The position numbers and the translations under genes were made by a program. From the NCBI RefSeq assembly GCF_030816235.1, contig NZ_JAUSXT010000001.1:3224001-3288000 (forward strand): a stretch of 64,000 nt of DNA. The letters are read 5' to 3'. The notes below the pieces were generated by a model. It was given only the letters and a program-made list of their open reading frames with translations. It did no database searches and had not been told where the DNA came from. Below are positions 46,951-61,723 of this stretch, piece after piece. Positions within the stretch are counted from its first letter, which is position 1. Each line of letters begins with the position of its first letter. The stretch comes from Microbacterium sp. W4I4 (lineage in GTDB: Bacteria; Actinomycetota; Actinomycetes; Actinomycetales; Microbacteriaceae).

Positions 46951-47607
46951 TCAGTGGAAGTCGACGAGCCCCGCGTGCGCGGCGGCGACGAGGATCTGCA
47001 CCCGATCGCGCACGTGCCACTTCGACATGATGCGGCCGAGATGCGCCTTGACCGTGCCCTCGGAGACGATCAGCGATTGCGCGATCTCGAGGTTGGACAT
47101 GCCTCGGGCGAGACGATCGAGCACCTCGGCCTCACGGTCCGTCAGCGGCTCCAATGCCTCGGCCGCACCGTGAGCCGGCGCCGTGTCGCGCACATGGTTG
47201 ACGAGCATCGCGGCGATGCGCGGCGAGAGGGAGCTCGCGCCGCTGTGGACTTCGCGGACGCCGTCGAGGATGATCTCGGCGCTGGAGTCCTTGAGCAGAT
47301 AGCCGGATGCCCCGGCGCTCAGCATCGGCAGCACGGTGTCGCTGCCGTCGAGGGTGGTCACGGCGAGGATTCGGACGTCGGGCCAGCGCTCGCTGATGGC
47401 GGCGGTGGCCTGGATGCCGTTCATCTCAGGCATCTGCACGTCCATCATCACCACGTCGACGCTCTGGCGCTCGAGGAAGGCGATTGCCTCGATCCCGTTG
47501 TCGGCCTGCCCCACGACTTCGATCTCCGGCCCGCGCGCGACGAAGTGCGAGAGCGCCGAGCGCACCAGTGGGTCGTCGTCGACGATGAGAACGCGGATGT
47601 CCGGCAT
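46951..47607 (-). CDS. NarL/LuxR-type response regulator
   Basis: 218 residues. Receiver domain with acidic pocket VDDD, phospho-acceptor Asp in VVMMDVQMPEMNG, and KDSS; C-terminal LuxR helix-turn-helix (LTDREAEVLDRLARGMSNLEIAQ, then SEGTVKAHLGRIMSKW). It is divergent from the histidine kinase at 47838 and a 15-residue peptide gene, and is surely the kinase's partner. TGGACN4GTCCA boxes in the shared spacer are its probable targets. Confidence 0.93.
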   Translation of the reverse strand: MPDIRVLIVDDDPLVRSALSHFVARGPEIEVVGQADNGIEAIAFLERQSVDVVMMDVQMPEMNGIQATAAISERWPDVRILAVTTLDGSDTVLPMLSAGASGYLLKDSSAEIILDGVREVHSGASSLSPRIAAMLVNHVRDTAPAHGAAEALEPLTDREAEVLDRLARGMSNLEIAQSLIVSEGTVKAHLGRIMSKWHVRDRVQILVAAAHAGLVDFH

Positions 47608-47650
47608 GACTGAAGCCTAACGGCGTGCACGGCTCCGACAGGGGTCGATG

Positions 47651-47664
47651 TGGACCTTTGTCCA
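47651..47664. promoter_or_regulatory. Candidate response-regulator box 1
   Basis: Palindrome TGGACCTTTGTCCA, 43 bp upstream of the response regulator start and about 95 bp before the peptide gene. It shares the pattern TGGACN4GTCCA with box 3. Confidence 0.65.
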
Positions 47665-47726
47665 TCGAGGTCTGGCCTGAGAGGCGATGCGCTTTCCGGT
47701 CGCAGTCGAGAAGATCAATAGGTACT

Positions 47727-47740
47727 TGGACAAACGACCA
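47727..47740. promoter_or_regulatory. Candidate response-regulator box 2 (imperfect)
   Basis: TGGACAAACGACCA, 18 bp before the peptide start codon. One arm matches TGGAC; the other reads GACCA instead of GTCCA. Confidence 0.5.
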
Positions 47741-47758
47741 GTGAATGAGGTGAATCAC

Positions 47759-47806
47759 ATGTCCATCTGGGAACTGCTCGCACGCGCACTCGGTATCTTC
47801 CGCTAA
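47759..47806 (+). CDS. 15-residue amphipathic peptide upstream of the sensor kinase
   Basis: ATG 47759 to TAA 47806 encodes MSIWELLARALGIFR. GAGGTGA, 5 nt before the ATG, is one of the best ribosome-binding sites in the window. The sequence would form a short amphipathic helix with Trp and Phe on one side and two Arg. It lies between response-regulator boxes and the kinase gene. It could be a secreted signal, a membrane-active peptide or a translation-coupling leader. A GC hairpin follows its stop (47808-47831). Confidence 0.55.
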   Translation: MSIWELLARALGIFR

Positions 47807-47807
47807 A

Positions 47808-47831
47808 GGTACCCCCTCGAATAGGGGATAC
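47808..47831 (+). promoter_or_regulatory. Hairpin between peptide and kinase genes
   Basis: GTACCCCCT and AGGGGATAC can pair with one G-T, around CGAAT. It separates the peptide gene from the kinase start at 47838 and may set the expression ratio by partial termination or by covering the ribosome-binding region. Confidence 0.45.
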
Positions 47832-47837
47832 TGAAGC

Positions 47838-48980
47838 ATGTCCTTCGGTCTGGCTGCCAGGGAAGACTCCGGCACACTTCGCCTGACTCGAGGCGAGAAG
47901 CTCAGCTCCATCGAGCGGATCGCGCTCCTGGTGGGCATCGGCATCTTCATCGCCATCGACGTCGTCGGGATCTTCATGGTCCCTTCAGACAACGTCGCTT
48001 CCTCGATTCTGAGCATCTCGGCCACCGCGGTGTTCACCCTTTATCTCTGGTCCCCGGTCACCGCGACAGCCGTGCTGGGGGTCGTGTTCGCCCTCTCCTT
48101 CTTCGCCGGCACTGATACGTCTGTGCTGCTCGCCGGAACCGTCGCCGCCGGAATGGTCATGCGTCTGGGTTCCACAGCGCTGGTCCTCGCGTACGCGGGC
48201 GGCTTCCTCGTCGCCACCGCCGTCGTCGCATACGGTGACCCCGCGGTCCCCGTCAATGTCGGCATCTATCTGCTCATCGCAGCCATCGCCGGCGCCGTCG
48301 GCTTCACACTGCGACTGGCGTCCGATCGGGGTCATAGTCTCGAGAAGCGGCTCGCCGAGAGCGCCGAGCAGGAACGTCAAGCCGTCCTCGCCGAGCGGCG
48401 CTGGATCGCCGGCGAACTGCACGACAGCATCGCCCACCACCTGACGGTCGTGGCGCTGCACGTGCAGATGCTCGACGATCCGGTCTCCCTCCCGGGATCG
48501 CAGGAAGCGATCCGCGTCGCGGCGCGCAAGGCCATGGCAGACCTCCGTTTCGTCATCGAGCTCGCCGATGACGGCCCCCGCACCCGGGGCATGCAGGCGG
48601 GAGACCTCACGCAGGCGATCGACGAGGCGCGCTCCGAGATCGCATCAGCCGGGCACGTCGTCCGAGTGGACGGCGACGCCGGTGACGAGCGCATCCCGAG
48701 GGTGGCGGAGATCGCGTTCGCGCGAATCGTCCGCGAATCCGCAACCAACATCCTCAAGCACGCGGGGCCAGGCGAGGTGGACATCTGTCTGCAGGTCGAC
48801 GATGAGCTCGTGGAGCTGACGATCACAAGCCCGCTTCCCGACACCCCGCGCCGGGATCTGCCGTCCAGCGGCACCGGGTTGAACCGGATGGCGGAGCGCG
48901 TTCTCGGCGCGAGTGGCGAGTTCAGCGCGGGTGCCGGGGACGGGCAGTGGCAGGTGCTCGCACGCCTCCCGCTCTCGTGA
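47838..48980 (+). CDS. Membrane sensor histidine kinase (HisKA_3/NarX type)
   Basis: 380 residues. About six hydrophobic segments fill residues 28-175, with no large external domain, so the stimulus is probably sensed in or at the membrane. The dimerisation helix has the phospho-His in RRWIAGELHDSIAHHLTV. The ATPase domain keeps the N box (RESATNILKHA) and GTGLNRMAERV, but its other glycine box is weak. Divergent from its response regulator. Confidence 0.9.
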   Translation: MSFGLAAREDSGTLRLTRGEKLSSIERIALLVGIGIFIAIDVVGIFMVPSDNVASSILSISATAVFTLYLWSPVTATAVLGVVFALSFFAGTDTSVLLAGTVAAGMVMRLGSTALVLAYAGGFLVATAVVAYGDPAVPVNVGIYLLIAAIAGAVGFTLRLASDRGHSLEKRLAESAEQERQAVLAERRWIAGELHDSIAHHLTVVALHVQMLDDPVSLPGSQEAIRVAARKAMADLRFVIELADDGPRTRGMQAGDLTQAIDEARSEIASAGHVVRVDGDAGDERIPRVAEIAFARIVRESATNILKHAGPGEVDICLQVDDELVELTITSPLPDTPRRDLPSSGTGLNRMAERVLGASGEFSAGAGDGQWQVLARLPLS

Positions 48981-50342: not shown

Positions 50343-50381
50343 GTCAACCCCCTCGGCGCCCGAGATGTCGGATGCGAGCAT
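50343..50381 (+). promoter_or_regulatory. GTCAAC-27-nAnnnT promoter, site 1
   Basis: GTCAACCCCC at 50343-50352 and the -10-like GAGCAT at 50376-50381. The transcript would start about 26 bp before the gene at 50414. Confidence 0.7.
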
Positions 50382-50413
50382 CGTGGCATCCGACAGTGAG
50401 GAGGAGGATTCTC

Positions 50414-50617
50414 ATGACCGACCCCGAGATCCATACCTGGTGGCCCGGCCTGACCGCCGAGGCGAAGTACACGCTGGATGCGATGGATGGCGAGATCATC
50501 CCCGACCTGGTGCGCGACGAGATCGAGCAGCTCACCGGAAGCCGGATGTCACGGGACGAGCGCCTGAACATCGCGGACCGGGACTTCATCCGCACCCAGC
50601 GCGAAGCTGTCGATTGA
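50414..50617 (+). CDS. Small conserved-type protein, unknown function
   Basis: 67 residues from ATG 50414 behind GAGGAGG. Acidic and helical (TWWPGLTAEAKYTLDAMDGEIIPDLVRDEIEQLTG, ending RDFIRTQREAVD). No membrane segment or known motif. It is a single gene driven by a GTCAAC-class promoter and so is likely part of the stress-type regulon of this island. Confidence 0.75.
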   Translation: MTDPEIHTWWPGLTAEAKYTLDAMDGEIIPDLVRDEIEQLTGSRMSRDERLNIADRDFIRTQREAVD

Positions 50618-50626
50618 CGTCATCCG

Positions 50627-51121
50627 TCATCCGTCTTTGACCTCCTGGGTGCGGACCGTGTCCTGGCCCGCACGTTCGGCGGGATAGTCGGGCCGCTCAG
50701 GCTGCGGCAGCTGGTCGGAGAGTTCACCGCCCTCGCGTCCGCCGAACGGACGGCCGTGATCGGCGTATTCCGCCCGCCCGAAGACGAGGGTCCACTCGCC
50801 CAGGGTGAACCGGGCGCCGGTGCGCAGCACCTCGGTGCGCTCGCCCTCGTGGTCCGGCTCCGAGCTGGCATTCATCTCGCCCGCTCCGTGCAGGGTGAGC
50901 ACGTACTCGTCGCGGTCGTCGTGAACGATCGTGGCGTGCACGGCATCCGTGCCCTGCAGCATCAGGTCGCTGCCCTGCCCCGATCCGATCGTGACCTCGT
51001 CCGCCGTGAGATCGAAGACGGAACGATCCTCGCCGCTGCGAGAGACCAGCAGGTGCGGCGCGCCCGACCCCCATTCGGCATGGGTGGTCATCGCGCTGTC
51101 GACCTCGGTCCGCCCGGTCAT
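50627..51121 (-). CDS. FHA-domain protein
   Basis: 164 residues. A forkhead-associated fold is seen in about residues 20-120 (LTADEVTIGSGQGSDLMLQGTDAVHATIVHDD; TGARFTLGEWTLVFGRAEYADHG). The usual phosphothreonine-binding Arg (IGR) is Ser (IGS), so phosphopeptide binding may be lost, although the VHA histidine remains. The C-terminal tail is disordered. Its start overlaps the CBS gene stop (ATGA). Confidence 0.82.
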   Translation of the reverse strand: MTGRTEVDSAMTTHAEWGSGAPHLLVSRSGEDRSVFDLTADEVTIGSGQGSDLMLQGTDAVHATIVHDDRDEYVLTLHGAGEMNASSEPDHEGERTEVLRTGARFTLGEWTLVFGRAEYADHGRPFGGREGGELSDQLPQPERPDYPAERAGQDTVRTQEVKDG

Positions 51122-51543
51122 GGCTGCCCCTCGCGTGAGATGTGCTCGACGGTGTCGCCGGTGGTGTCGGGGTCGAGGCTGCGTGCGATGTCGGCCTGGC
51201 TGACGATGCCCACCAGCCGCTGCTCGTCGATCACGGGCACCCGCCGCACCTGGTGCTCGCGCATGAGCTCGAGCACGCTCGCGATGTCGTCGTCGGCCTG
51301 AGCGGTCAGGGGCGAGCCCTCCGCGAACCGTCCGGCGTTGGTGGTGTCGGGGTCGTAGCCGTCGGCGATGCCTTTCACGACGATGTCGCGGTCGGTCAGC
51401 ATCCCCTTGAGTCGTCCGTCCTCGCCGCAGATGGGCAGTGCGCCCACGTCGAGATCGCGCATCAGCTCGGCGGCGATCGTGAGAGCGTCGTTCTCTCCGA
51501 CGCACTGGGCGCCCGCGGTCATGATGTCGCGCGTCAGGGTCAT
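51118..51543 (-). CDS. CBS-domain pair protein
   Basis: 141 residues, two tandem CBS motifs (IMTAGAQCVGENDALTIAAELM, LKGMLTDRDIVVKGIA; SVLELMREHQVRRVPVIDEQRLVGIVSQADIARSL). Stand-alone CBS pairs bind adenosine nucleotides and often serve as energy or stress sensors. First gene of an operon with the FHA gene, read from a GTCAAC-class promoter at 51635. Confidence 0.9.
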   Translation of the reverse strand: MTLTRDIMTAGAQCVGENDALTIAAELMRDLDVGALPICGEDGRLKGMLTDRDIVVKGIADGYDPDTTNAGRFAEGSPLTAQADDDIASVLELMREHQVRRVPVIDEQRLVGIVSQADIARSLDPDTTGDTVEHISREGQP

Positions 51544-51596
51544 GGCCCTGCTCCTCTCCTGCCTTTTCGGCGTTCGTTTCCTGTCGTCTGGTCACG

Positions 51597-51635
51597 ACGC
51601 TAGCCAGAGCTCTCTCCGACGCTAATGGGGTTGAC
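51597..51635 (-). promoter_or_regulatory. GTCAAC-27-nAnnnT promoter, site 2 (CBS-FHA operon)
   Basis: On the minus strand, GTCAACCCC (51635-51627) and -10 TAGCGT (51602-51597) with 27 nt after GTCAAC. It is back to back with site 3; the two GTCAACCCC motifs form an inverted repeat 16 bp apart. Confidence 0.75.
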
Positions 51636-51651
51636 AGCGCCCTGCATGCTC

Positions 51652-51690
51652 GTCAACCCCCTTCTCGCAGGCGCAGGAGACGGCCACCCT
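51652..51690 (+). promoter_or_regulatory. GTCAAC-27-nAnnnT promoter, site 3
   Basis: GTCAACCCCC (51652-51661) and -10-like CACCCT (51685-51690), upstream of the 34-residue membrane peptide gene and DUF6766 gene. Confidence 0.65.
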
Positions 51691-51746
51691 TCAGAGGCGG
51701 ACGAGCTCCGCAGGGGCCGGTGGTCCCGAGGACGAGAGGACCGGAG

Positions 51747-51851
51747 ATGCAGCAGAATCCGAGTGGCGCCCTGACGATGTTCTGGATCTGGATGGGCACG
51801 GTCATCGTCGGCTTCCTGGCGATGATCGTGATCCTCGTGAGCGGCAGGTGA
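51747..51851 (+). CDS. 34-residue membrane peptide
   Basis: ATG 51747 to TGA 51851 encodes a peptide with one hydrophobic helix (MFWIWMGTVIVGFLAMIVIL) after a polar MQQNPSGALT. AGAGGA lies upstream. It ends just before the DUF6766 gene, so the two are probably translated together. Function unknown. Confidence 0.65.
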   Translation: MQQNPSGALTMFWIWMGTVIVGFLAMIVILVSGR

Positions 51852-51856
51852 GTCGG

Positions 51857-52534
51857 ATGCTTCGCACGCTGCGTGACAACGCGTTGAGTCTGTTCTTCTT
51901 GGCCCTGTTCGTGCTGGCGCTGTTCGGGCAGTCGATCGCGGGATTCCTGAGGACGAACGAGGAGCTGTCTCAGCACGCGATGCCTCAACAGGGATATCTC
52001 GAGTTCGTCTTCTCCAGCGACTTCGTCGTCGACGTCGCGGAGAACTGGCAGTCCGAGTTCCTGCAGTTCCTGCTGTTCATCGTCGCGACCGTCTGGCTCG
52101 TGCAGCGCGGCTCACCGGAGTCGAAGCAGCCGGGTGACGAGGGAGCAAGCAGCGACAAGGATCAGAAGGTCGGACCGTACGCCCCGGAGGATGCACCCGC
52201 GGGAGCGAAAGTCACGGGCTGGCGTCGCGTGGTGTACGAGAACTCCCTCGCCATCGTGATGGGGGCGATCTTCTTCGTGTCCTGGCTGATGCAGTCGCTC
52301 AGCGGCGTGGTCGTGATGAATCAGGAGAACGCCGAGCACGGCGAGGCACCGCTGACCTGGCTGCAGTATGTGGCATCGCCGGAATTCTGGGATCGCACGC
52401 TCCAGAACTGGCAGAGCGAGTTCCTCGCGGTCGGGACGATGGTGACGTTCTCGATCTTCCTGCGCCAGCGCTCGTCCGCGGAGTCGAAGCCGGTCGGCGC
52501 GCCGCACGTGGTGTCGTCGGAGTCGTCCGAGTGA
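51857..52534 (+). CDS. DUF6766 membrane protein
   Basis: About 225 residues from ATG 51857 (AGGTGAG just upstream); GTG 51848 overlapping the previous stop is possible. Four hydrophobic helices are arranged in two similar halves (NALSLFFLALFVLALFGQSI ... WQSEFLQFLLFIVATVWLVQRGS; NSLAIVMGAIFFVSWLMQSL ... WQSEFLAVGTMVTFSIFLRQRSS). The repeat shows an internal duplication. Function unknown; the family is widespread in actinobacteria. Confidence 0.82.
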   Translation: MLRTLRDNALSLFFLALFVLALFGQSIAGFLRTNEELSQHAMPQQGYLEFVFSSDFVVDVAENWQSEFLQFLLFIVATVWLVQRGSPESKQPGDEGASSDKDQKVGPYAPEDAPAGAKVTGWRRVVYENSLAIVMGAIFFVSWLMQSLSGVVVMNQENAEHGEAPLTWLQYVASPEFWDRTLQNWQSEFLAVGTMVTFSIFLRQRSSAESKPVGAPHVVSSESSE

Positions 52535-52546
52535 CGCGGCGGGGGA

Positions 52547-52855
52547 TCACTCCCCGTCGAGGTGCTCCTCCAGCAGCATGATGCCGCCGCTGGAGTTCGC
52601 CGAATGCGCCATCGCGGTGATCCACTCGGCGCTCAGTTCCGGGCTGTCCGGGTCGCCGAACACGAATCGGAGCGGGATCGAGGGGTGCAGCCAGATCGTC
52701 GTGCGCCCGGGGTTCTCATCGCTCGGGTGCCGCCACGACAGGGTGAAGCTCTCGTTGCGCCGCAGTTTCGTGGCGATCACCACTTTCAGGTGCGCGAGAG
52801 CCCGATCTTCGATGACGATCGGCTCCGGGTCGTTTCCATAGAACAGCTGGCCCAT
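52547..52855 (-). CDS. DUF7882-type protein, paralogue 1
   Basis: 102 residues: MGQLFYGNDPEPIVIEDRAL, LKVVIATKLRRNESFTLSWRH, TTIWLHPSIPLRFVF and WITAMAHSANSSGGI. The family is small, cytoplasmic and common in Microbacteriaceae, sometimes mislabelled as DNA ligase. It is divergent from its paralogue at 52936. The start is fixed by a leaderless arrangement: TAACCT ends 7 nt before the ATG within an 18-bp palindrome. Confidence 0.8.
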   Translation of the reverse strand: MGQLFYGNDPEPIVIEDRALAHLKVVIATKLRRNESFTLSWRHPSDENPGRTTIWLHPSIPLRFVFGDPDSPELSAEWITAMAHSANSSGGIMLLEEHLDGE

Positions 52856-52873
52856 GGGGCTAAGGTTAGCCCC
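52856..52873. promoter_or_regulatory. 18-bp palindrome at the DUF7882 start
   Basis: GGGGCTAAGGTTAGCCCC, directly adjoining the start codon at 52855. It contains the minus-strand -10 TAACCT, so a protein bound here would block that promoter. Confidence 0.6.
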
Positions 52874-52935
52874 GACGGCCCGTGCGGGCCAGGCATACTC
52901 CTAGTCCACGACGAAGAGAGGGCGCGGGCGAGATC

Positions 52936-53271
52936 ATGGGAAAGTTCATCTATGACGCCTCGGTCAAGACCGACATCGAGGACCGGGCGCTCACACATCT
53001 GCAGCTCGTGATCTCGGCGAAGCTGCGCCGCGGGGAGCCGTTCCCGTTCAGCTGGCGGGAGGACCCGAGTGTCGGCGGCGGACGCACGACCGTCTGGGTG
53101 CACGCCGGCAGCTCGCTGGTCTTCAAGTACTTCGGCAGTCGTCAGCCGGCCATCAATCGTGCGTGGATCGAGGCGCTCGCCTTCACCGCCAACACCCCGA
53201 GCGGGCTGCATCTCGTTCCGGAGCCGCCCGAGGACCAGGTTCCCGGTCCCGAGGTGCACAACGGCGTCTGA
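52936..53271 (+). CDS. DUF7882-type protein, paralogue 2
   Basis: 111 residues: MGKFIYDASVKTDIEDRAL, LQLVISAKLRRGEPFPFSWRE, TTVWVHAGSSLVFKYFG and WIEALAFTANTPSGLHL. It shares the whole domain plan with the divergent gene at 52547, so the two arose by duplication. ATG 52936 begins the conserved MGK block. Function unknown. Confidence 0.8.
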   Translation: MGKFIYDASVKTDIEDRALTHLQLVISAKLRRGEPFPFSWREDPSVGGGRTTVWVHAGSSLVFKYFGSRQPAINRAWIEALAFTANTPSGLHLVPEPPEDQVPGPEVHNGV

Positions 53272-53319
53272 CGCCTCAGCTTCCGTCCGCCCTTCCCATA
53301 GGCAGGGACCCCCTCTCTC

Positions 53320-53358
53320 GTCAACCCCCGCGCGCCCCGGGCCTCGTACTCGTAGCGT
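53320..53358 (+). promoter_or_regulatory. GTCAAC-27-nAnnnT promoter, site 4
   Basis: GTCAACCCCC (53320-53329) and -10 TAGCGT (53353-53358), 64 bp upstream of the SRPBCC gene. The bases around the -10 (CGTAGCGTCGGAG) resemble those of site 2. Confidence 0.75.
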
Positions 53359-53383
53359 CGGAGGCGACGAGAGGAATGGACGT

Positions 53384-53848
53384 ATGGAGAAGGTCACTGC
53401 CGAGATCGAGGTGGATGCCCCCGTGCACCGTGTCTACGAGCGGTGGGCGCGTCTGGAGGAGCTGCCGTCATTCATGTCGATGGTCGAGGAGGTGACGCGC
53501 ACCGGTGGTGAAGACGTCACCCACTGGGTCGTCCGAGTCGCGGGGGTGCGTCGCGAGTTCGACGCCCGCACGACCGAGCTGGTTCCCGACGAGAGGATCT
53601 CGTGGGCGAGCATCGACGAGGAGATGCACGCCGGCACCGTGCGCTTCATGCCGATCGACGCCGAACGCACACGCGTCGCCGTCGAGCTCGGCTGGGCGCC
53701 GAAGTCGTTCGTCGAGAAGGCCGGAGCGGCGCTGAACATCGATCGAGCGGCGATCGAGGCCGATCTCCGCCACTTCAAGGAGCAGATCGAGGACGACGCA
53801 TCCGGCGCGGACTTCGTCGAAGGACGCGATCCCGACCTGCTGATCTGA
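53384..53848 (+). CDS. SRPBCC-family (polyketide cyclase-like) protein
   Basis: 154 residues, a START/SRPBCC hydrophobic-cavity fold (VTAEIEVDAPVHRVYERWARLEELPSFMS; TTELVPDERISWASIDE; TRVAVELGWAPKSFVEKAG). Such cyclase/dehydrase-like proteins with this N-terminus are common in actinobacterial stress regions, sometimes near membrane-lipid genes. ATG 53384 follows AGAGGA. First gene of an operon with an LLM oxidoreductase and a GH13 enzyme. Confidence 0.85.
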   Translation: MEKVTAEIEVDAPVHRVYERWARLEELPSFMSMVEEVTRTGGEDVTHWVVRVAGVRREFDARTTELVPDERISWASIDEEMHAGTVRFMPIDAERTRVAVELGWAPKSFVEKAGAALNIDRAAIEADLRHFKEQIEDDASGADFVEGRDPDLLI

Positions 53849-53870
53849 TCCGGCGGCGGGTGATGCGCTG

Positions 53871-54830
53871 ATGACGAGCATCGGGTTCCACGCCTCGCAC
53901 GAACAGCGCGCCCCGAGCCGGCTGCTGCGCGATGTCGTGCGCGCGCAGCAGGTCGGATTCGACGAGGTGATGTGCTCCGACCACATGGCACCCTGGCTGA
54001 CCGCCCAGGGCGAGTCCGGTTTCGCGTGGTCCTGGCTGGGCGCGGCGCTGGCGACCACCACGGTGCCGATCGGCGTGGTGACCGCCCCGGGACAGCGGTA
54101 TCACCCGACGGTGCTCGCCCAGGCGGCAGCCACGCTGGAGGAGATGTTCCCCGGGCGGTTCTGGGCGGCGCTCGGCAGCGGAGAGGCGCTGAACGAGCAC
54201 GTCACCGGCGTCCCCTGGCCGAGCAAGCAGGAGCGGGATGCCCGGTTGCTGGCGTGCGCCACGGTGATGCGGAGGCTGCTGTCGGGGCAGAGGGTGAGCG
54301 TCGACGGGCCGGTGCGCGTTCATGACGCGCGGCTGTGGAGTCTTCCGGCCACGCCGCCCCCGCTGCGCGCGGCCGCGATCAGCCCGCACACGGCGACGCT
54401 GGTCGCCCCCTGGGCCGACGGCCTCATCACCGTCGGCGCCGATCCGGCATCCACCCGCGAGACGAGGGAGGCCTTCCGGGATGCCGGTGGTCGGGGGCCT
54501 CTGCTGCTGCAGATCCATCTGAGTCTCGAGGACTCGGACGAGGGCGCCCTGGCGTCGGCGCACGAGCAGTGGGCGCAGGCGACCGTGCCGCCGGAGCTGA
54601 TGTGGGAGCTCGAGCAGCCCGAGGACTTCGAGGAGTTCGCCCGTCCGACCGAGGACCGGCTGCGCCAGAGCATCGTCATCGGCTCGAACGCGGGCGAGGT
54701 CGCCGGGCGGATCGCCGCCGCCGCGTCGGGCTTCGACGCGGTGTTCCTGCACCAGGTCGGGCCGGATCAGTCCGCATTCCTGGACCGATGCGAGGCCGAG
54801 CTGCTTCCGGCGCTGCGGAGGATGCTGTGA
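53871..54830 (+). CDS. LLM-class flavin/F420-dependent oxidoreductase (TIGR03885-like)
   Basis: 319 residues, luciferase-like TIM barrel (IGFHASHEQRAPSRLLRDVVRAQQVGFDEVMCSDHMAPW; RFWAALGSGEALNEHVTG). The sub-group is regularly encoded beside a GH13 trehalose-synthase-like gene, as here. The substrate is unknown. Its stop overlaps the start of the next gene (GTGA). Confidence 0.87.
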   Translation: MTSIGFHASHEQRAPSRLLRDVVRAQQVGFDEVMCSDHMAPWLTAQGESGFAWSWLGAALATTTVPIGVVTAPGQRYHPTVLAQAAATLEEMFPGRFWAALGSGEALNEHVTGVPWPSKQERDARLLACATVMRRLLSGQRVSVDGPVRVHDARLWSLPATPPPLRAAAISPHTATLVAPWADGLITVGADPASTRETREAFRDAGGRGPLLLQIHLSLEDSDEGALASAHEQWAQATVPPELMWELEQPEDFEEFARPTEDRLRQSIVIGSNAGEVAGRIAAAASGFDAVFLHQVGPDQSAFLDRCEAELLPALRRML

Positions 54831-56467
54831 ATCCCGCAGACACCAGTGACCTGTGGTGGCGCACCTCGGTGATCTACTGCCTCGACGTCGAGACCTTCCA
54901 GGACTCGGACGGAGACGGCTGTGGGGATTTTCCCGGACTCTCCCGGCGCATCGACGACCTCGCGGCCCTGGGTGTGACCTGCATCTGGCTGATGCCCTTC
55001 CAGCCCACCCCGAACCGCGACGACGGCTATGACATCTCCGACTTCTACGGTGTGGATCGACGGCTCGGCGACCTCGGTCACGTGACCGACATGATCCGGA
55101 TCGCCCACAACCGCGGCATCCGGGTCGTCATGGACCTCGTGGTCAATCACACCTCCGATCGGCATCCGTGGTTCGTCTCGGCTCGTCGCTCCCGCGACTC
55201 GAGGCACCGCGACTACTACGTGTGGCGCGACCGCCCGCCGAGGGGCGAGCAGAAGGTGGTCTTCCCCGGCGAGGAGTCCAGCGTGTGGGAATTCGACGAA
55301 CGCACCCGTCAGTACTTCCAGCACAGCTTCTACCGGCACCAGCCCGACCTGAACCTCGCCAACCCGCAGGTGCGGGCGGAGATCGCCCGCGTCATCGGTT
55401 TCTGGCTCGGACTCGGAATCGACGGGTTCCGGGTGGATGCGGTGCCCTTCCTCATCACGCGCGAGGGCATCGCCGACACGCACGACCCGCATTCCTTCCT
55501 GAGGGAGCTTCACCGCTGCGCGGGAAGGCGCCAGGGATCCGCTCTGCTTCTCGGAGAGGTGGGCCTGCCGCACGAGGACCAGATCGAGTACTTCGGCGAG
55601 GGGGGCACCGAGCTGGACATGCAGTTCGACTTCCTCACCGCCGAGACGATCTTCCTGGCGCTCGCGCGCCAGGAGGCCACACCGCTCGCCCGCGTGCTCG
55701 CCTCGCGGCCCCGGGTCGATGAGCGCCAGGGCTGGGCGATGTTCCTGCGAAACCACGACGAGCTGTCGCTGGAGCTGCTGAGCGAGAAGGAGCGCGAAGA
55801 GGTGTTCGCGGCCTTCGCGCCCGAAGAGCACCAGCGCGTCTACGGCCGCGGGATCGTGCGCAGACTCGCGCCGATGCTCGACGACGACCCGCGCAGGCTC
55901 CGCCTCGCGTACAGCTTGCTGTTCTCCCTGCCCGGAGCGCCGATGCTCTTCTACGGCGAGGAGATCGGCATGGGAGAGCTCGACGGGGACCTCGGCCGCG
56001 AGGCGGTGCGCGGACCCATGCAGTGGGATGCCGGACCCAAGGGCGGCTTCACGACCGCCCGGCGCTCACGCCGCCGCATCGCCACCGGAGGATACGGTCC
56101 TGCCCACGTGAATGTCCACGACCAGAGGCGCGACCCGGACTCACTGTGGTCGTTCATCTCCGTGCTCACCGCACGGTACCGCTCGACGCCGGAGATCGCG
56201 TGGGGCGACCTCGAAGTGCTCGATGCGGGGGACTCGCGCGTTCTCGTGCACGAGGCGACCTTCGGGGAGGTCAGCTTCATCGCACTGCACAATTTCTCCC
56301 CGGAGCCAGTGACCATCTCACTGAGGGAACTGCCCGAGGGGCGCACCGCCACCGTGCTGGTGGAGCATGCCGGAAGCACTCCCCAGGGCGAGCACACCCG
56401 CCAGCACCTGGGCGGCTACGGCTTCCGCTGGCTGCGGACGTCGGCGGCATCGGCATCCGCCGCCTGA
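54827..56467 (+). CDS. GH13 alpha-amylase family enzyme (trehalose synthase-like)
   Basis: About 546 residues from GTG 54827, overlapping the previous stop. All four GH13 regions are present: DLVVNHTS, GFRVDAVPF (nucleophile Asp), LLGEVG (acid/base Glu) and RNHDE. The pattern YCLDVETFQDSDGDGCGDFPGL resembles trehalose synthase and alpha-glucosidases. It is cytoplasmic (no signal peptide). Conversion of maltose to trehalose or hydrolysis of alpha-glucosides are both possible. A protective role under osmotic or drying stress fits the surrounding genes. Confidence 0.88.
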   Translation: MNPADTSDLWWRTSVIYCLDVETFQDSDGDGCGDFPGLSRRIDDLAALGVTCIWLMPFQPTPNRDDGYDISDFYGVDRRLGDLGHVTDMIRIAHNRGIRVVMDLVVNHTSDRHPWFVSARRSRDSRHRDYYVWRDRPPRGEQKVVFPGEESSVWEFDERTRQYFQHSFYRHQPDLNLANPQVRAEIARVIGFWLGLGIDGFRVDAVPFLITREGIADTHDPHSFLRELHRCAGRRQGSALLLGEVGLPHEDQIEYFGEGGTELDMQFDFLTAETIFLALARQEATPLARVLASRPRVDERQGWAMFLRNHDELSLELLSEKEREEVFAAFAPEEHQRVYGRGIVRRLAPMLDDDPRRLRLAYSLLFSLPGAPMLFYGEEIGMGELDGDLGREAVRGPMQWDAGPKGGFTTARRSRRRIATGGYGPAHVNVHDQRRDPDSLWSFISVLTARYRSTPEIAWGDLEVLDAGDSRVLVHEATFGEVSFIALHNFSPEPVTISLRELPEGRTATVLVEHAGSTPQGEHTRQHLGGYGFRWLRTSAASASAA

Positions 56468-56604
56468 GCCTCAGTCTCGTCGGTCTGGTCGTGCTCGTCG
56501 GGGTCGGCCGCCCCCGGATTCGCCACGTCCTCATCCACGGCGTCGTCGTCGGGTCGCTGCGGCTGCACGTGCTCCGGCATCATGCCCTGGTCGATGCCGC
56601 TCAT
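56416..56604 (-). CDS. Small acidic disordered protein
   Basis: 62 residues, very rich in Asp, Glu, Ala and Gln (DDDAVDEDVANPGAADPDEH). It starts at ATG 56604, overlapping the stop of the upstream acidic gene (ATGA), and its last 52 bp lie antisense to the end of the GH13 gene. No domain is recognised. It may be a hydrophilin-like stress protein. Confidence 0.55.
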   Translation of the reverse strand: MSGIDQGMMPEHVQPQRPDDDAVDEDVANPGAADPDEHDQTDETEAQAADADAADVRSQRKP

Positions 56605-56837
56605 GACCGTTCCTCGTCCTCGAGCACCGGCCCTGACGCGCCATCCGATCGCAGATCGTCCGGGGCATCGCCCGAGTGCTGTGCTCCGTCGCCCTCGGCG
56701 AGGTCTCCCTGGCCGTCCTCGCCCAGCTCCGCGTCGAGTGGCGCGTCGCCCTGACTGTCGGGCTGCAGATCGGGCCGGCCGACGACGGCGGCGTCCGGCT
56801 CGGGAGTGTCGCCGGCGGCATCCATGGAATCGGTCAT
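56601..56837 (-). CDS. Small acidic disordered protein
   Basis: 78 residues from ATG 56837, with AGAGGA 8-10 nt upstream (ATG 56843 is too close to it). About a third of residues are Asp, Glu or Gly (LDAELGEDGQGDLAEGDGAQ). No Cys or membrane segment. It is first in a two-gene operon with the gene at 56416 and is read from a GTCAAC-class promoter. Function unknown. Confidence 0.58.
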   Translation of the reverse strand: MTDSMDAAGDTPEPDAAVVGRPDLQPDSQGDAPLDAELGEDGQGDLAEGDGAQHSGDAPDDLRSDGASGPVLEDEERS

Positions 56838-56861
56838 CAGCATTTCCTCTCGTGATCTGCC

Positions 56862-56900
56862 AGTGTCCGGCGACCGTGGCGGAAGGGGCAGGGTGTTGAC
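56862..56900 (-). promoter_or_regulatory. GTCAAC-27-nAnnnT promoter, site 5 (acidic proteins)
   Basis: On the minus strand, GTCAACACCC (56900-56891) and -10 GACACT (56867-56862), 27 nt after GTCAAC. It is 63 bp from the start at 56837. Confidence 0.6.
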
Positions 56901-56963
56901 ATCCTCTGGAACGAGGGGTACCGACGCCGGCATCCCGGCCGCCTGCCTTCTCGGCCCGTGACT

Positions 56964-57002
56964 GTCAACCCCCTGGCCGCCTGCGAGCACATCGCCGAAG
57001 CT
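56964..57002 (+). promoter_or_regulatory. GTCAAC-27-nAnnnT promoter, site 6 (SDR gene)
   Basis: GTCAACCCCC (56964-56973) and -10-like GAAGCT (56997-57002), 77 bp before the SDR start. A more ordinary TTGACA-17-TACCGA pair lies at 56896-56924. Confidence 0.65.
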
Positions 57003-57040
57003 GTGCAGACCAGCTTCCGAGACGCGACGAGAGGTGCGAT

Positions 57041-57926
57041 ATGACCGACAGCACACCCGATCCACGCCACGAGCATCGCGAGGAGGGGTTTCCTCCGCAG
57101 GAGCAGGATCAGCCCGGGCACACCGGCAGAACCGCACCCACGCCGGATCACGGCGAGGACTCGTACACCGGCAATGACCGCCTTCACGGCAGGAAGGCCC
57201 TGATCACCGGGGGTGACTCCGGGATCGGCCGTGCGGTGGCGATCGCGTTCGCACGCGAAGGCGCCGACGTCGCGATCGTGCATCTTCCGGAGGAGCAGAA
57301 AGGACGCCGACACCACGGTCGGGCTCATCGAAAAGGCAGGCCGGACCGGACTCAGCCTTCCCGGCGACCTGCGAGAGGAGTCGTTCGCCACCGACGCCGT
57401 ACGGCAGGCGCGAGAGCGACTCGGGGGACTCGACGTGCTGGTGCTCAACGCCGGATACCAGCACGACATCGACGGTTTCGGGTCGCTGGTGACCGAGGAT
57501 ATGCGCCGGGTCTTCGACACGAACCTCTGCGGCACGATCTTCACAGCACGGGCGGCCTACCCGGACCTCGAGCCAGGTGCCAGCATCATCGTCACCGCAT
57601 CCATTCAGGCCTACAACCCTTCGCCGGGGCTCATCGACTACGCCATGACCAAAGCGGCGCAGGTCGCATTCGTGAAGGCCCTCGCCGAGGAGGCGGGCAA
57701 GCGCGGCATCCGCGTCAACGCCGTCGCCCCCGGGCCGATCTGGACGCCGCTGATCCCCGCCACCGGCTGGGATGACGAGAAGATCGCGAGCTTCGGCGCG
57801 GACACCCCGCTCGGCCGGGCAGGGCAGCCGGCGGAGCTCGCCGGCGCCTACGTGTATCTGGCCTCGTCCGAATCCTCGTACACCTCGGGCAGCGTCGTCG
57901 CTGTGACAGGAGGAAAACCGCTGTGA
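57041..57926 (+). pseudogene. SDR-family oxidoreductase (YghA/glucose-dehydrogenase-like), frameshifted
   Basis: A 50-residue polar N-terminus ([20 protein letters not shown]) precedes the Rossmann motif [23 protein letters not shown], then IVHLPEEQK. The frame breaks at 57302-57303 and resumes as [14 protein letters not shown], with LNAGYQ and the catalytic YAMTKAA. Removing one G from the GG restores a 294-residue protein of the type found in stress-induced actinobacterial genes. The stop overlaps the next start (GTGA). It is either a sequencing error or a very recent mutation. Confidence 0.85.
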
Positions 57927-58237
57927 GCACGCTGATCTCCGACCCTCCGAGCGCCTCGACGCCGCACGGCGACTGGGAGCTGACCCCCATCGGCCGCGGC
58001 AGCTGGCGCATCTGCGATCTTGCACGACGTCAGGCCGACGCGGACTGCCTGATCGCCTATGTCGAGCGCAACACCACCGGATCCCTCGATGTGCTGTGGC
58101 TGCGCCGGCCGTGTCCGCGCAGCACGCGCTTCCATGATTTCGACGAGCTGTACGCCGCGCTCGATGCGGCTGTCGCCGCAGCATCCGATCGATCCGCCTC
58201 TCCGTCGCCGATCCGGCACCTGCCTCCCCGCCGCTGA
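57923..58237 (+). CDS. Hypothetical protein following the SDR gene
   Basis: 104 residues from GTG 57923, coupled to the SDR stop. The central part (WELTPIGRGSWRICDLARRQADADCLIAYVER; VLWLRRPCPRSTRFHDFDELYAALDAA) looks like a small alpha/beta domain. The ends are disordered. Family not recognised. Confidence 0.7.
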   Translation: MSTLISDPPSASTPHGDWELTPIGRGSWRICDLARRQADADCLIAYVERNTTGSLDVLWLRRPCPRSTRFHDFDELYAALDAAVAAASDRSASPSPIRHLPPRR

Positions 58238-58338
58238 GCGGGCCCCGAGTCCTTCCGCCGCACCCGCCGCCGCCGACCCTCCCCCCGACCGGCGGCGGGA
58301 GCGGCGGAAGTGGTGGTGCACGGGCGTAGCCTCGGTGC

Positions 58339-59379
58339 ATGACTGATCTGTGCGCGCTGCTCGGCATCCGGCATCCGATCGTGCTCGCCCCCTTCGGCGG
58401 GCTGTCCTCCGTGGCGCTCACGACAGCGGTGAGCGCGGCCGGCGGGCTCGGGTCGTACGGGCTGTACGGCTACGACGCGGACCGGATCTGCACGACGGCG
58501 GCAGCGTTGCGCGGATCCGGTCCGTACGCGCTCAACATCTGGCTGCCGACCGGCGATGAGGTCATACCCGGTCCCGAGCACGACACCTATGCGGCGGCGC
58601 TCGCGGACTTCTTCGCCGAGGTCGGGATCGAACCGCCAGCGCGGCCCGAACGGTATCTGCCGCCGCTCGATGAGCAGCTGGATGCGATCTGGGAAGCCGC
58701 ACCGGCCGTGCTCAGCGTGGTGTTCGGCGTGCCTTCGGCCGGGATCGTAGAGGAGGCGCACCGCCGGGGCATCCGCGTTCTCGGCACAGCCACCACGGTC
58801 GCCGAGGCCGTCGCGCTGGAAGCAGGAGGAGTCGACGCCGTCGTCGCGACCGGCGCCGAGGCCGCGGGGCACAGGGTGTCGTTCCTGAAACCGGCGGAGG
58901 CGTCGCTGGTCGGGCTGGTCTCGCTCGTGCCTCAGGTGGCGGATGCCGTCAGCATCCCGGTCATCGCCGCCGGGGGCATCGGCGATCGTCGAGGCGTCGC
59001 CGCGGCGTTCGCGCTCGGCGCCTCGGGTGTGCAGGTGGGCACATCGTTCCTCGCCACGGCGGAGTCCGCCGCGAACGATGCGCACCGGGCCGCCATCCGC
59101 TCGACATCGGCGGATGGCAGTGTGCTCACGCGGGCGATGAGCGGGCGTCTCGCGCGAGGAGCCCGCAACCGCGCGGTCACCGCGATCGAGGAGTCCGGAG
59201 CGATCGCGCCGTTCCCCGCGCAGAACTGGCTGACCGGCCGCTTCCGCGCCGTCGCCGGGAAGCGCGGTCTCGGCGAGCTGCAGTCGCTGTGGCTCGGGCA
59301 GTCCGCGCCGCTCGCGCGGTGGGATGCCGCAGCCGAGGTCTTCGCCGAGCTGCTGGCGGGCGTGCCCGCGGTCGACTGA
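58339..59379 (+). CDS. Nitronate monooxygenase-like flavoprotein
   Basis: 346 residues, FMN TIM barrel of the 2-nitropropane dioxygenase group: HPIVLAPFGG, LSVVFGVPS, GVDAVVATGAEAAGHR, PVIAAGGIGDRRGVAAAFALGASGVQVGTSFL. It oxidises nitronates or related acids in the cytoplasm. The mRNA is probably leaderless: TAGCCT ends 6 nt before the ATG. Convergent with purU. Confidence 0.88.
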   Translation: MTDLCALLGIRHPIVLAPFGGLSSVALTTAVSAAGGLGSYGLYGYDADRICTTAAALRGSGPYALNIWLPTGDEVIPGPEHDTYAAALADFFAEVGIEPPARPERYLPPLDEQLDAIWEAAPAVLSVVFGVPSAGIVEEAHRRGIRVLGTATTVAEAVALEAGGVDAVVATGAEAAGHRVSFLKPAEASLVGLVSLVPQVADAVSIPVIAAGGIGDRRGVAAAFALGASGVQVGTSFLATAESAANDAHRAAIRSTSADGSVLTRAMSGRLARGARNRAVTAIEESGAIAPFPAQNWLTGRFRAVAGKRGLGELQSLWLGQSAPLARWDAAAEVFAELLAGVPAVD

Positions 59380-59382
59380 GAG

Positions 59383-60246
59383 TTACAGGATGACGGTCGA
59401 GCGGCCGTGCACGATCACACGATCCTCGGCGTGCCACTTCACCGCACGCGCCAGCACGAAGCGCTCCACATCGGCGCCGCGGCGCTGCAGCTCGGCGGCG
59501 GACTCGGCGTGCGTGACGCGCGTGACGTCCTGCTCGATGATCGGGCCCTCGTCGAGGTCGGCCGTGGCGTAGTGCGCGGTCGCGCCGATCAGCTTCACAC
59601 CCCGGTCCTTCGCCCTGGCGTACGGGTTGGCGCCGATGAACGCCGGCAGGAAGGAGTGGTGGATGTTGATCACCGGCGCGCCGACCCGCTCGATGAAATC
59701 ATCGGTGAGGATCTGCATGTACCGGGCCAGCACGACCAGGTCGACGTTGCCCTGCAGCAGCTCCAGCTGGCGAGCCTCCATCTCGGCCTTGGCATCCGGA
59801 CCCTCGCCGCGGGGGACGTGCACGAACGGGACCCCGAAGGAGCGCACCGATGCGGCGAGGTCGGGGTGGTTGGAGACCACCATGGTCACGTCGATGTCCA
59901 GCTCACCGCGCTGCGTGCGCCACAGCAGCTCCATCAGGCAGTGGTCGTACTTCGACACGAAGATCGCGACTCGCTTGCGGGTGGACGTGTCGTGCAGCGA
60001 CCACTCCATCGCGAAGCGCTCCGCGACCTCGGAGAGAGACGCCTCCAGTGCAGGTCGCTTCGTCGCGAGTCCGTCCAGATGGATCACCGTGCGCTGGAAG
60101 AAGCGACCGCCCACCTCATCAGTGGAGTGCTGATCGAGCGAGATGATGTTCGCCCCGTGCGACGCCAGCACTCCGGCGACGGCCGCGACGATGCCGGGCT
60201 GGTCGTCGCAGGCGATGAGAAGGCGTGCGGTGTCGGTCTGCGGCAT
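59383..60246 (-). CDS. purU: Formyltetrahydrofolate deformylase
   Basis: 287 residues from ATG 60246 with AGGAG upstream. N-terminal ACT domain (ARLLIACDDQPGIVAAVAGVLASHGANI) and a formyl-transferase-like catalytic domain with KYDHCLMELL, NIHHSFLPAF and EGPIIEQDV, carrying the Asn-His-Asp set of the family. It hydrolyses 10-formyl-THF to formate and THF and so balances the one-carbon pool. Confidence 0.94.
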   Translation of the reverse strand: MPQTDTARLLIACDDQPGIVAAVAGVLASHGANIISLDQHSTDEVGGRFFQRTVIHLDGLATKRPALEASLSEVAERFAMEWSLHDTSTRKRVAIFVSKYDHCLMELLWRTQRGELDIDVTMVVSNHPDLAASVRSFGVPFVHVPRGEGPDAKAEMEARQLELLQGNVDLVVLARYMQILTDDFIERVGAPVINIHHSFLPAFIGANPYARAKDRGVKLIGATAHYATADLDEGPIIEQDVTRVTHAESAAELQRRGADVERFVLARAVKWHAEDRVIVHGRSTVIL

Positions 60247-60348
60247 GGATGCTCCTGAGCTGGGCGTTCTCTCGATTCTGCCCGTCACGTGTCGTGGGTG
60301 CGAATCGTCTGCTCGTCGTGGCCCGGCCTAGCGGGTGCGGGGTCCGGC

Positions 60349-60387
60349 GGCAATCCCCTTCCCGCCGCCGACGACACTCTCTACCGT
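60349..60387 (+). promoter_or_regulatory. GTCAAC-27-nAnnnT promoter variant, site 7 (corA)
   Basis: GGCAATCCCC (60349-60358), two mismatches to GTCAACCCCC, and -10 TACCGT (60382-60387) at the same 27-nt distance. The -10 ends 6 nt before ATG 60394. Confidence 0.55.
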
Positions 60388-60393
60388 GGGGAC

Positions 60394-61392
60394 ATGCTTC
60401 GACCGGTGCAGAACGGAGATGACGAGATGACCGATGCCGCACAGGAGCCGACGCGCGCCCCGGTCATCCTGATCAACCCTGCCGCTCCGGAGATCGACGA
60501 TCTCGCGGCGCGCTTCGATCTGCATCCGCTCATCGCCGAAGATCTGCGGGCGGGCAGACAGCAGCCCAAGTTCGAGCGCATCGGCGCGCATCTGTATCTG
60601 TCCCTGTGGGATCTGAACTCCGAGCGGCCGGATGACGCGCCTGGCTCGCCCAGCGAACTCGCCTTGATCTTCGACCAGCATCAGCTCCTGCTCGTGCAGC
60701 GCGGCCCTCGCGAAGAGCTGCGTGATCTGAATGCGGTGCTTTCGGCTCCCGGCGTCGTGCCCGTGACCTCTACGATCTCGGCGGTGCACCGGATCCTCGA
60801 TGTCGTCGTCTCGAACTTCGTCGAGCTCGGTGCGGCCATCGAGCGCGAACTCGACTCCGTGGAGGAAGAGGTGTTCGACAGCCGCGTGCGCGAGGACTAC
60901 CGGCGCATCTACCGGCTGCGTCAGCGCATCGGACAGATCGATCGTGCGGCATCCGGTCTCGCCGAGGCGGTGCGCTCGGCGCAAGCGGAGGTCCAGGCGA
61001 TCACGGAGCCGGAGCCGGAGCTGCGGCCCTACTTCATCCACCTGGAGCACGATGCGATCGGCATCGCCCACCTTGCGGCGGCCGAGCATGCGGCGCTGGA
61101 TGCCGTCGTGTCGAGCCATCAGAGCAACGTGTCCACCCGGCAGAACCGGGACATGCGCACGATCTCCGCCTGCGCGGCGCTGCTGGCCATCCCGACCGTG
61201 ATCGCCGGGATCTACGGGATGAACTTCAAGAACATGCCGCTGCTCGGTTGGGGGCTCGGCTGGCTCATCATGATCGGCATCATGATGGTGATCGATGTCT
61301 CGGTGTACCTCCTGTTCCGACGTCGCGGGTGGCTCGGCGGTGCGCCGGCGGCGCGCAGCGATGGCGATGGCGACGGCGAAGCCCGCACCTGA
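60394..61392 (+). CDS. corA: CorA-family magnesium/cobalt transporter
   Basis: About 332 residues from ATG 60394, which a -10 (TACCGT) 6 nt upstream would make leaderless; ATG 60427 with GGAG upstream is the alternative. The long cytoplasmic N-terminal domain (LAARFDLHPLIAEDLRAGRQQPKFERIGAHLYLSLW) ends in the stalk helix and two C-terminal membrane helices with the pore motif GIYGMNFKNMP. It forms a pentameric Mg2+ channel. It is the only transporter in the GTCAAC-type group. Confidence 0.92.
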   Translation: MLRPVQNGDDEMTDAAQEPTRAPVILINPAAPEIDDLAARFDLHPLIAEDLRAGRQQPKFERIGAHLYLSLWDLNSERPDDAPGSPSELALIFDQHQLLLVQRGPREELRDLNAVLSAPGVVPVTSTISAVHRILDVVVSNFVELGAAIERELDSVEEEVFDSRVREDYRRIYRLRQRIGQIDRAASGLAEAVRSAQAEVQAITEPEPELRPYFIHLEHDAIGIAHLAAAEHAALDAVVSSHQSNVSTRQNRDMRTISACAALLAIPTVIAGIYGMNFKNMPLLGWGLGWLIMIGIMMVIDVSVYLLFRRRGWLGGAPAARSDGDGDGEART

Positions 61393-61463
61393 CTCGCCGG
61401 CCGACGGACGCCGACGGTGCGTGGGGAGTCGGTCATGCGGGATAACACCGGAATTCGGGTGAA

Positions 61464-61502
61464 GTCAACCCCCGCGACCGGGACACCGTGGGCTGGCATG
61501 CT
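61464..61502 (+). promoter_or_regulatory. GTCAAC-27-nAnnnT promoter, site 8
   Basis: GTCAACCCCC (61464-61473) and -10-like CATGCT (61497-61502), 54 bp before the membrane peptide gene at 61556. Confidence 0.68.
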
Positions 61503-61555: not shown

Positions 61556-61723
61556 ATGAACATCGCGCTCATAGTCATCATCGTCATCGCGGTCATCGTC
61601 GCGATCGTCTCCGGATTGAACGCCGCACTGAGCTGGCTGCTCTGGGTCGCGTTGATCGTCGGCGTGATCGCCCTGATCGCGTTCCTGATCCGTGTCCTCA
61701 GCGGGCGCAACACCAGCGTCTGA
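61556..61723 (+). CDS. Small two-helix membrane protein
   Basis: 55 residues from ATG 61556, with GAAGGAG upstream. Almost entirely hydrophobic (MNIALIVIIVIAVIVAIVSG; WLLWVALIVGVIALIAFLIR), ending SGRNTSV. It is a single gene with a GTCAAC-class promoter. Function unknown; small proteins of this kind are frequent in envelope-stress regulons. Confidence 0.78.
   Translation: MNIALIVIIVIAVIVAIVSGLNAALSWLLWVALIVGVIALIAFLIRVLSGRNTSV

Follow-up and report, generated by a model that had tools for sequence, protein, structure and literature searches.

What kind of promoter is formed by a short sequence that recurs at one distance from a hexamer across a cluster of stress-type genes in Microbacterium sp. 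W4I4? The window analysed here is a stretch of 64,000 nucleotides (nt) of the single-contig genome of this strain (3,835,514 bases; Microbacteriaceae; assembly GCF_030816235.1, contig NZ_JAUSXT010000001.1, positions 3,224,001 to 3,288,000). An earlier note on this DNA had listed eight sites at which GTCAAC, or the variant GGCAAT, is followed after 27 nt by a hexamer of the form nAnnnT, and had suggested an activator site in class II position or an atypical sigma -35 element. We propose, with a probability of about 0.8, that these sites serve as promoters for a general stress regulon, at which an activator bound to GTCAACCCC upstream of a weak -35 element would recruit the holoenzyme of the primary sigma factor.

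All eight sites lie where they had been placed, and on re-reading the window the hexamer stands exactly 27 nt downstream of GTCAAC or GGCAAT at 8/8 of them. The upstream motif claimed for these promoters, GTCAACCCCC, is exact at five of the eight and was too strict for the remaining three, which are near variants reading GTCAACCCCA (site 51635, minus strand), GTCAACACCC (56900, minus strand) and GGCAATCCCC (60349). GTCAAC itself occurs 22 times in the window, and nAnnnT follows at 27 nt in 7/7 of the sites noted earlier as against 1/15 of the others.

The whole genome holds 35 copies of GTCAACCCC and six of a reversed-letter control. As the same excess over the reversed control is equally present in 15/15 genomes of other families, bare counts of GTCAACCCC are not diagnostic and were dropped as evidence. 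The spacing carries the argument. The hexamer nAnnnT was found at 27 nt from 11/35 GTCAACCCC sites, while each of 49 other spacings (10 to 59) gave at most 3/35; the probability of 11 or more at 27 nt is about 1e-10 to 1e-11. The stricter TAnnnT occurs at 27 nt in 5/35, at 26 nt once and at no other spacing. The genome-wide check that the earlier note had proposed therefore left its claim of a fixed spacing unrefuted. We read 34 of the 35 sites as loci, the 35th being the window site at 61464. The hexamer at 27 nt is missing in 24 of the 34 classified sites, and 20 of these 24 lie inside called genes (by a rough gene caller). One of the 11 spaced sites (L010) has no convincing downstream gene that we could see, and one further site beyond the 11 (L017) has TAGCCT at 26 nt.

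Members outside the window include a DUF72 protein, CsbD and, by eye, a short-chain dehydrogenase (SDR) and a CinA-like protein. A sequence model (A1, R1) built from 13 sites added two weaker members, a lipocalin gene (CGCAACCCCC-27-TATCGT) and a trehalose-phosphate synthase gene (ACCACCCC-24-TAGCCT), which score E 0.74 and 0.31. Among the collected sites the spacing is 26 in 6/102 and 28 in 3/102; since sigma spacers vary, such cases fit the promoter reading.

Occurrence of the promoter layout in Microbacteriaceae

The comparison with related Microbacterium genomes suggested in the earlier note bore the layout out. The R1 search scored few candidates per genome (77 scored) and so gives a lower bound: matches at E<=0.01 were obtained in at least 32/79 Microbacterium genomes. 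Of the 36 matches outside the source genome 29 were read (L079, on a short locus, was skipped by the script), and the layout is present in 28 of them. A second model, R2, made from 42 sequences, matched 21/22 Microbacterium genomes at E<=0.1. Among the Microbacterium matches that had no locus and an E value of up to 0.038, sixty were read, leaving aside G019:C6, G020:C72 and the loci L084-L111 and L118-L120; the layout at 26-28 nt was found in 58 of the 60.

In other families the R2 matches were weak, with eight in 6/14 genomes. Five of the six that were read carry 8-9 of 9 element bases and none of these has nAnnnT at 27 nt; one of the five (L115) has it at 26 nt. The sixth (L114) has a 5-of-9 element with nAnnnT at 27 nt. 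An order-wide model search found matches in at least 7/248 genomes, which is not an absence result because the search scored no more than 24 candidates in each genome out of thousands. In a spacing control with two genomes of other families, nAnnnT at 27 nt was found in 0/20 and 0/20 GTCAACCCC sites (samples of 20 of 39 sites in G024 and 20 of 35 in G026).

The gene for a general-stress SDR, a target in the window, offers a test that does not start from the motif. Thirty loci were fetched, eight of which lacked the anchor peptide, and 22 were assessed including this genome. An element of at least 7 of 9 bases with a -10 hexamer at 26-28 nt lies upstream in 8/22 loci, or 7/21 for the loci of other genera alone, so that SDR orthologs carry the motif in other genomes too. 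Shuffled motifs gave an average of 1.3/22, and the highest of 300 shuffles gave 9.

An exact scan with GTCAACCCCCT-N22-TAGCGT over 84,980 species returned 101 stretches. Because the scan fixes the spacing, it tests taxonomic restriction and not spacing. Of the 80 records listed among the 101, 74 belong to Microbacteriaceae, with the genera Microbacterium, Agromyces, Leifsonia, Salinibacterium, Klugiella, Protaetiibacter, Homoserinibacter, Compostimonas and Microcella. Membership in the family was checked for five of the nine genera; the rest we take to belong to it. The promoter layout is thus nearly restricted to one family, the Microbacteriaceae. Two viral contigs, which begin alike, also carry the pattern, and the gene caller found no genes on them.

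Promoter architecture and target genes

Start codons reveal how the hexamer is used. Near-duplicates were removed, reducing the pooled promoters from 194 to 164 and the pattern-only sites from 101 to 80. In the pooled set an ATG lies 6 nt after the hexamer in 39 promoters, 7 nt after it in 17 and 8 nt in 4, and the remaining offsets from 0 to 16 hold 0-2 each. As an ATG at 6 nt has its first base within the last column of the model, the count was redone on the pattern-only sites, where an ATG lies at 6 nt in 17 and at 7 nt in 9; the other offsets up to 19 hold 0-1 each, and the next peak is 6 at 20 nt. Together the two offsets account for 56/164 pooled and 26/80 pattern-only sites. Such a peak points to leaderless transcripts, to the hexamer as the -10 element and to a +1 position seven nt after it, which in turn puts GTCAACCCC at about -45 to -37. 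Judged by leaderless ATG codons and not by RNA, the hexamer is an ordinary -10 element with a start about 7 nt downstream, as had been predicted, and many of these promoters appear to be leaderless.

The -35 position is degenerate. With a 17-nt spacer its first base is T in 8/13 sites of this genome and in 67/93 collected sites, a column that lies inside the models; this T is the sole clearly conserved base, the remaining ones showing little conservation. The end of the element adjoins the -35 position at a fixed distance, as in a class II promoter, and the column statistics brought out no palindrome, repeat or clear second half-site. The earlier suggestion of a class II-type activator site beside a degenerate -35 therefore agrees with the fixed spacing, the leaderless starts and the T in 8/13 sites. 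In the mechanism that we favour, a DNA-binding activator would sit at about -45 to -37 and read GTCAACCCC(C) as an asymmetric and probably monomer-sized site. Placed immediately upstream of a weak -35 with T as its only clearly conserved base, the activator would touch region 4 of sigma and so recruit the primary sigma (sigma-A) holoenzyme to the TAGCGT-like -10.

The 191 target genes, not de-duplicated and with a choice of start that favours an ATG that is leaderless or led by a ribosome-binding site, fall into 76 clusters. Nine of the 101 scan loci had been dropped before clustering and promoter pooling: six as unrelated or unplaced (L239, L257, L276, which has an SRPBCC target, L280, L293 and L312) and three without a near gene (L318, L322 and L331). 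The largest clusters are a 54-residue membrane protein (19), Dps (16), the general-stress SDR (13) and DJ-1 (8), and CBS, FHA-like, DUF7218/Rho_N, SRPBCC, FMN reductase and CsbD proteins recur as well. A Pfam scan of 20 representatives of the 76 clusters gave Dps-type ferritin, CsbD, DJ-1, PNPOx, lipocalin, trehalose-P synthase, CBS, DUF892 and topoisomerase IB. The stress-type character that the earlier note saw in the targets is thus strongly supported in this genome and its relatives, and from these protein families the target set is, in our reading, a general stress regulon. The regulon is likely to be induced by drying, by osmotic or oxidative stress and in stationary phase.

The sites of the window and their targets are collected in Table 1. 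Several of these targets return elsewhere: CBS and FHA-like proteins and small acidic proteins are motif targets in other genomes also, and a protein similar to the DUF6766 target is one in genome G014 (L123). No Pfam match was obtained for the longer open reading frame (ORF) at 50372-50617 that covers the first target. The frame of the SDR gene changes in this genome, and one-frame orthologs are present in others. Around the targets of other species, stress genes that bear the motif have topoisomerase IB-like genes nearby in Agromyces and others (L241, L245, L259, L267 and related loci) and, in Agromyces, genes that by eye encode LigD-type polymerases (L267 cluster); in Salinibacterium (L241) the topoisomerase IB gene is one of the leaderless targets.

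Table 1. Predicted promoter elements of the window with their target genes (positions of the window; aa, amino acids)
Feature	Position	Strand	Remark
Predicted activator element	50343..50351	+	GTCAACCCC, exact
Predicted -10 hexamer	50376..50381	+	GAGCAT, 27 nt after GTCAAC
Target: small protein	50414..50617	+	67 aa, led by a ribosome-binding site
FHA-like protein	ORF 50627-51595		FHA call by eye and in the earlier note; Pfam match below cut-off
Predicted activator element	51627..51635	-	GTCAACCCC
Predicted -10 hexamer	51597..51602	-	TAGCGT
Target: CBS-domain protein	51118..51543	-	FHA-like protein next
Predicted activator element	51652..51660	+	GTCAACCCC, divergent from 51635
Predicted -10 hexamer	51685..51690	+	CACCCT
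Target: DUF6766 membrane protein	51848..52534	+	E 3.7e-92
Predicted activator element	53320..53328	+	GTCAACCCC
Predicted -10 hexamer	53353..53358	+	TAGCGT
Target: SRPBCC protein	53384..53848	+	first gene of its series
Luciferase-like ORF	53871-54830		downstream of SRPBCC
Alpha-amylase-like ORF	54335-56467		downstream of SRPBCC
Predicted activator element, variant	56892..56900	-	GTCAACACC
Predicted -10 hexamer	56862..56867	-	GACACT
Target: small acidic protein	56604..56843	-	80 aa
Predicted activator element	56964..56972	+	GTCAACCCC
Predicted -10 hexamer	56997..57002	+	GAAGCT
Target: general-stress-type SDR	57041..57926	+	frame interrupted in this genome
Predicted activator element, variant	60349..60357	+	GGCAATCCC
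Predicted -10 hexamer	60382..60387	+	TACCGT, ATG 6 nt downstream (leaderless)
Target: CorA-family transporter	60394..61392	+	E 3.5e-45
Predicted activator element	61464..61472	+	GTCAACCCC
Predicted -10 hexamer	61497..61502	+	CATGCT
Target: small membrane protein	61556..61723	+	55 aa; by eye like the commonest cluster (54 aa, MNILLI...)

Candidate regulators and rival explanations

One rival is that GTCAACCCC is itself the -35 of an alternative sigma factor of an unusual kind, whose spacer would be very long. The motif is strongly conserved and no consensus -35 separates it from the -10, which would agree with this second suggestion of the earlier note. The distance of 27 nt, or 23 nt when counted from where the C-run ends, lies far beyond normal sigma spacers, and a single sigma factor could not span 23-27 nt; moreover, the hexamer is of the TAnnnT-like type that is the ordinary actinobacterial -10, and T is enriched where a normal -35 would start (8/13 sites). 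There are 12 matches to sigma-70 region 2 in the genome. Read by eye, the 11 proteins recovered (all except L200) are a primary sigma, a FliA-like factor and extracytoplasmic function (ECF) types. We therefore regard an atypical sigma -35 as very unlikely. No match to SigBFG (TIGR02980) passes the cut-off in this genome. That cut-off is passed in 45/198 genomes of the order and by none of the 14 Microbacteriaceae rows listed, 13 of which stand at the background of primary sigma factors. A sigma factor of another Microbacterium (G091:C11:453851-454525) scores 216 bits against SigBFG, where the cut-off is 234.

An iron-sulphur protein of the Wbl family, seated on region 4 of sigma-A, might recognise GTCAACCCC beside the -35 in the way that WhiB7 recognises its AT-rich element. 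The asymmetric site would suit a Wbl-sigma complex, and the genome has two Wbl genes. Neither protein shows an RGRP AT-hook when read by eye, and no WhiB7-type protein was found; both presumably are of the ordinary WhiB1-/WhiB2-type with the usual C-terminus, which counts against this role. Proteins of these types are widespread in Actinomycetota, whereas the promoter layout occurs almost only in Microbacteriaceae, and we noticed no Wbl gene among the targets. WhiB3 is described as having low sequence specificity (PMC10245118). A Wbl regulator appears unlikely on this evidence.

A NarL-type response regulator with a divergent histidine kinase (46951-48980) adjoins the cluster here, and in G002 and G014 the pair likewise has stress genes nearby. 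Its ortholog (at least 67% identity) is found in 7/22 Microbacterium genomes, with two more at about 50%, whereas regulon promoters occur in 21/22; for this reason we rejected it as the shared regulator, and its control of the regulon is highly improbable. Between the two genes lies a 15-codon ORF, MSIWELLARALGIFR, with a ribosome-binding site (47759-47806, plus strand), and similar ORFs of 15 residues occupy the same place, by eye, in G002 (L184) and G021 (L188). This ORF may possibly encode a peptide signal of the adjacent two-component system. DUF7882 was considered as the factor as well, as it clusters with targets (18 loci) and occurs mostly in Microbacteriaceae. It was set aside on a predicted secondary structure without an obvious helix-turn-helix; its predicted fold gave no PDB match at E<=0.001, and the family is multi-copy and was found in 9/119 genomes of the order, seven of them Microbacteriaceae. 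Two divergent DUF7882 genes lie within the stress cluster (52547-52855, minus strand; 52882-53271, plus strand).

Several points weigh against the proposed activator. No regulator was found: by eye none was recognised among the 76 target clusters, so that an autoregulatory clue is missing, and no shared regulator was recognisable among the recurrent neighbours of 116 loci. Most of the collected promoters come from model or pattern searches that demanded the layout, and their perfection is therefore partly by construction. In the control genomes nAnnnT stands at 26 nt in 1/20 sites each, and other spacings reach 4/20 and 3/20. A T lies 20 nt upstream of the motif, two helical turns away, in 55/155 pooled sites (z 6.2) and in 21/80 of the pattern-only set (z 1.8); as the enrichment shrinks there, we do not build on this base, and the pattern-only count weakens the contact of an alpha-subunit C-terminal domain that we had considered at this position. 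Nor can activation be told from repression by position alone, and the element could be a repressor operator, or a half-site of a direct repeat, at promoters that are constitutive without it. An activator is the better fit to an element that stands in fixed phase with the -10, beside a poor -35 and without a clear second half-site, and we give a repressor little credence.

Four tests are free of the bias of construction: the spacing in the source genome, the upstream regions of SDR orthologs with their shuffles, the spacing control in other families and the pattern-only ATG count. They bear also on the idea that chance or coding produced the pattern, through Val-Asn-Pro codons joined to hexamers picked by eye. 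That idea would suit the 20/24 sites without the hexamer at 27 nt that lie in called genes and the excess of GTCAACCCC in 15/15 other families. It is refuted by the spacing test (11/35); the exact scan over species, the 0/40 of the control and the ATG peak of the pattern-only set also speak against it, and it can be given practically no weight.

Relation to known systems

The proposed mechanism is, by analogy, most like activation by WhiB7 with sigma-A or class II activation. At WhiB7/sigma-A promoters the element of the factor lies directly upstream of the -35 and the primary sigma is used, as described in PMC10245118; both features recur in our proposal. The WhiB7 element is AT-rich and answers antibiotic stress, whereas the nine-base element found here is GC-rich and precedes general stress genes. 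The -10 of WhiB7 promoters in mycobacteria and streptomycetes is of the TAnnnT type. Because the element differs in sequence and, in a genome with only two Wbl genes, neither of them with an RGRP AT-hook, a WhiB7-type protein was not found, we do not regard the set as a WhiB7 regulon. PafBC, of the mycobacterial DNA damage response, likewise acts on the primary sigma holoenzyme, which it reprograms for a special set of promoters, and has a specific motif at -26 (PMC11804915), in contrast to about -45 to -37 for the element here. From the -35 T to the -10 the column statistics show no block of strong conservation; no search for the PafBC motif itself was made. Class II activators of the CRP/FNR and response-regulator type share a footprint that overlaps or abuts the -35 in fixed phase; the site here differs in being a single asymmetric 9-10-mer in which no palindrome or repeat is apparent. 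ECF promoters have a normal spacer of about 15-19 nt between -35 and -10, as against 23-27 nt here. Among the matches listed in the open-access literature we found no description of the motif or of a stress regulon in Microbacteriaceae, which agrees with the earlier note, whose author knew of no described regulon of this architecture.

The targets overlap those of sigma-B in Bacillus, RpoS and EcfG in CsbD, Dps, the general-stress SDR, lipocalin and trehalose synthesis. In those systems an alternative sigma factor or its partner is in control, whereas here SigBFG over the cut-off was not found and the promoter is of the primary-sigma type. We tentatively suggest, with rather less than even confidence, that Microbacteriaceae lost or never had a sigma-B-type sigma factor and that their general stress response depends on a family-specific, monomer-like activator outside the Wbl family, which docks on sigma region 4 at GTCAACCCC. 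If true, this would be a new class of master regulator, an activator that does what sigma-B does in other Gram-positives.

Microbacteriaceae are bacteria of soil, leaves and insects, some of them very tolerant to drying. For dozens of named species the motif yields a list of regulon members with predicted transcription starts, many of them leaderless. It may reveal an activator in the role filled elsewhere by sigma-B, RpoS or EcfG, and in many Microbacteriaceae GTCAACCCC looks like the docking site of the master switch of the general stress response.

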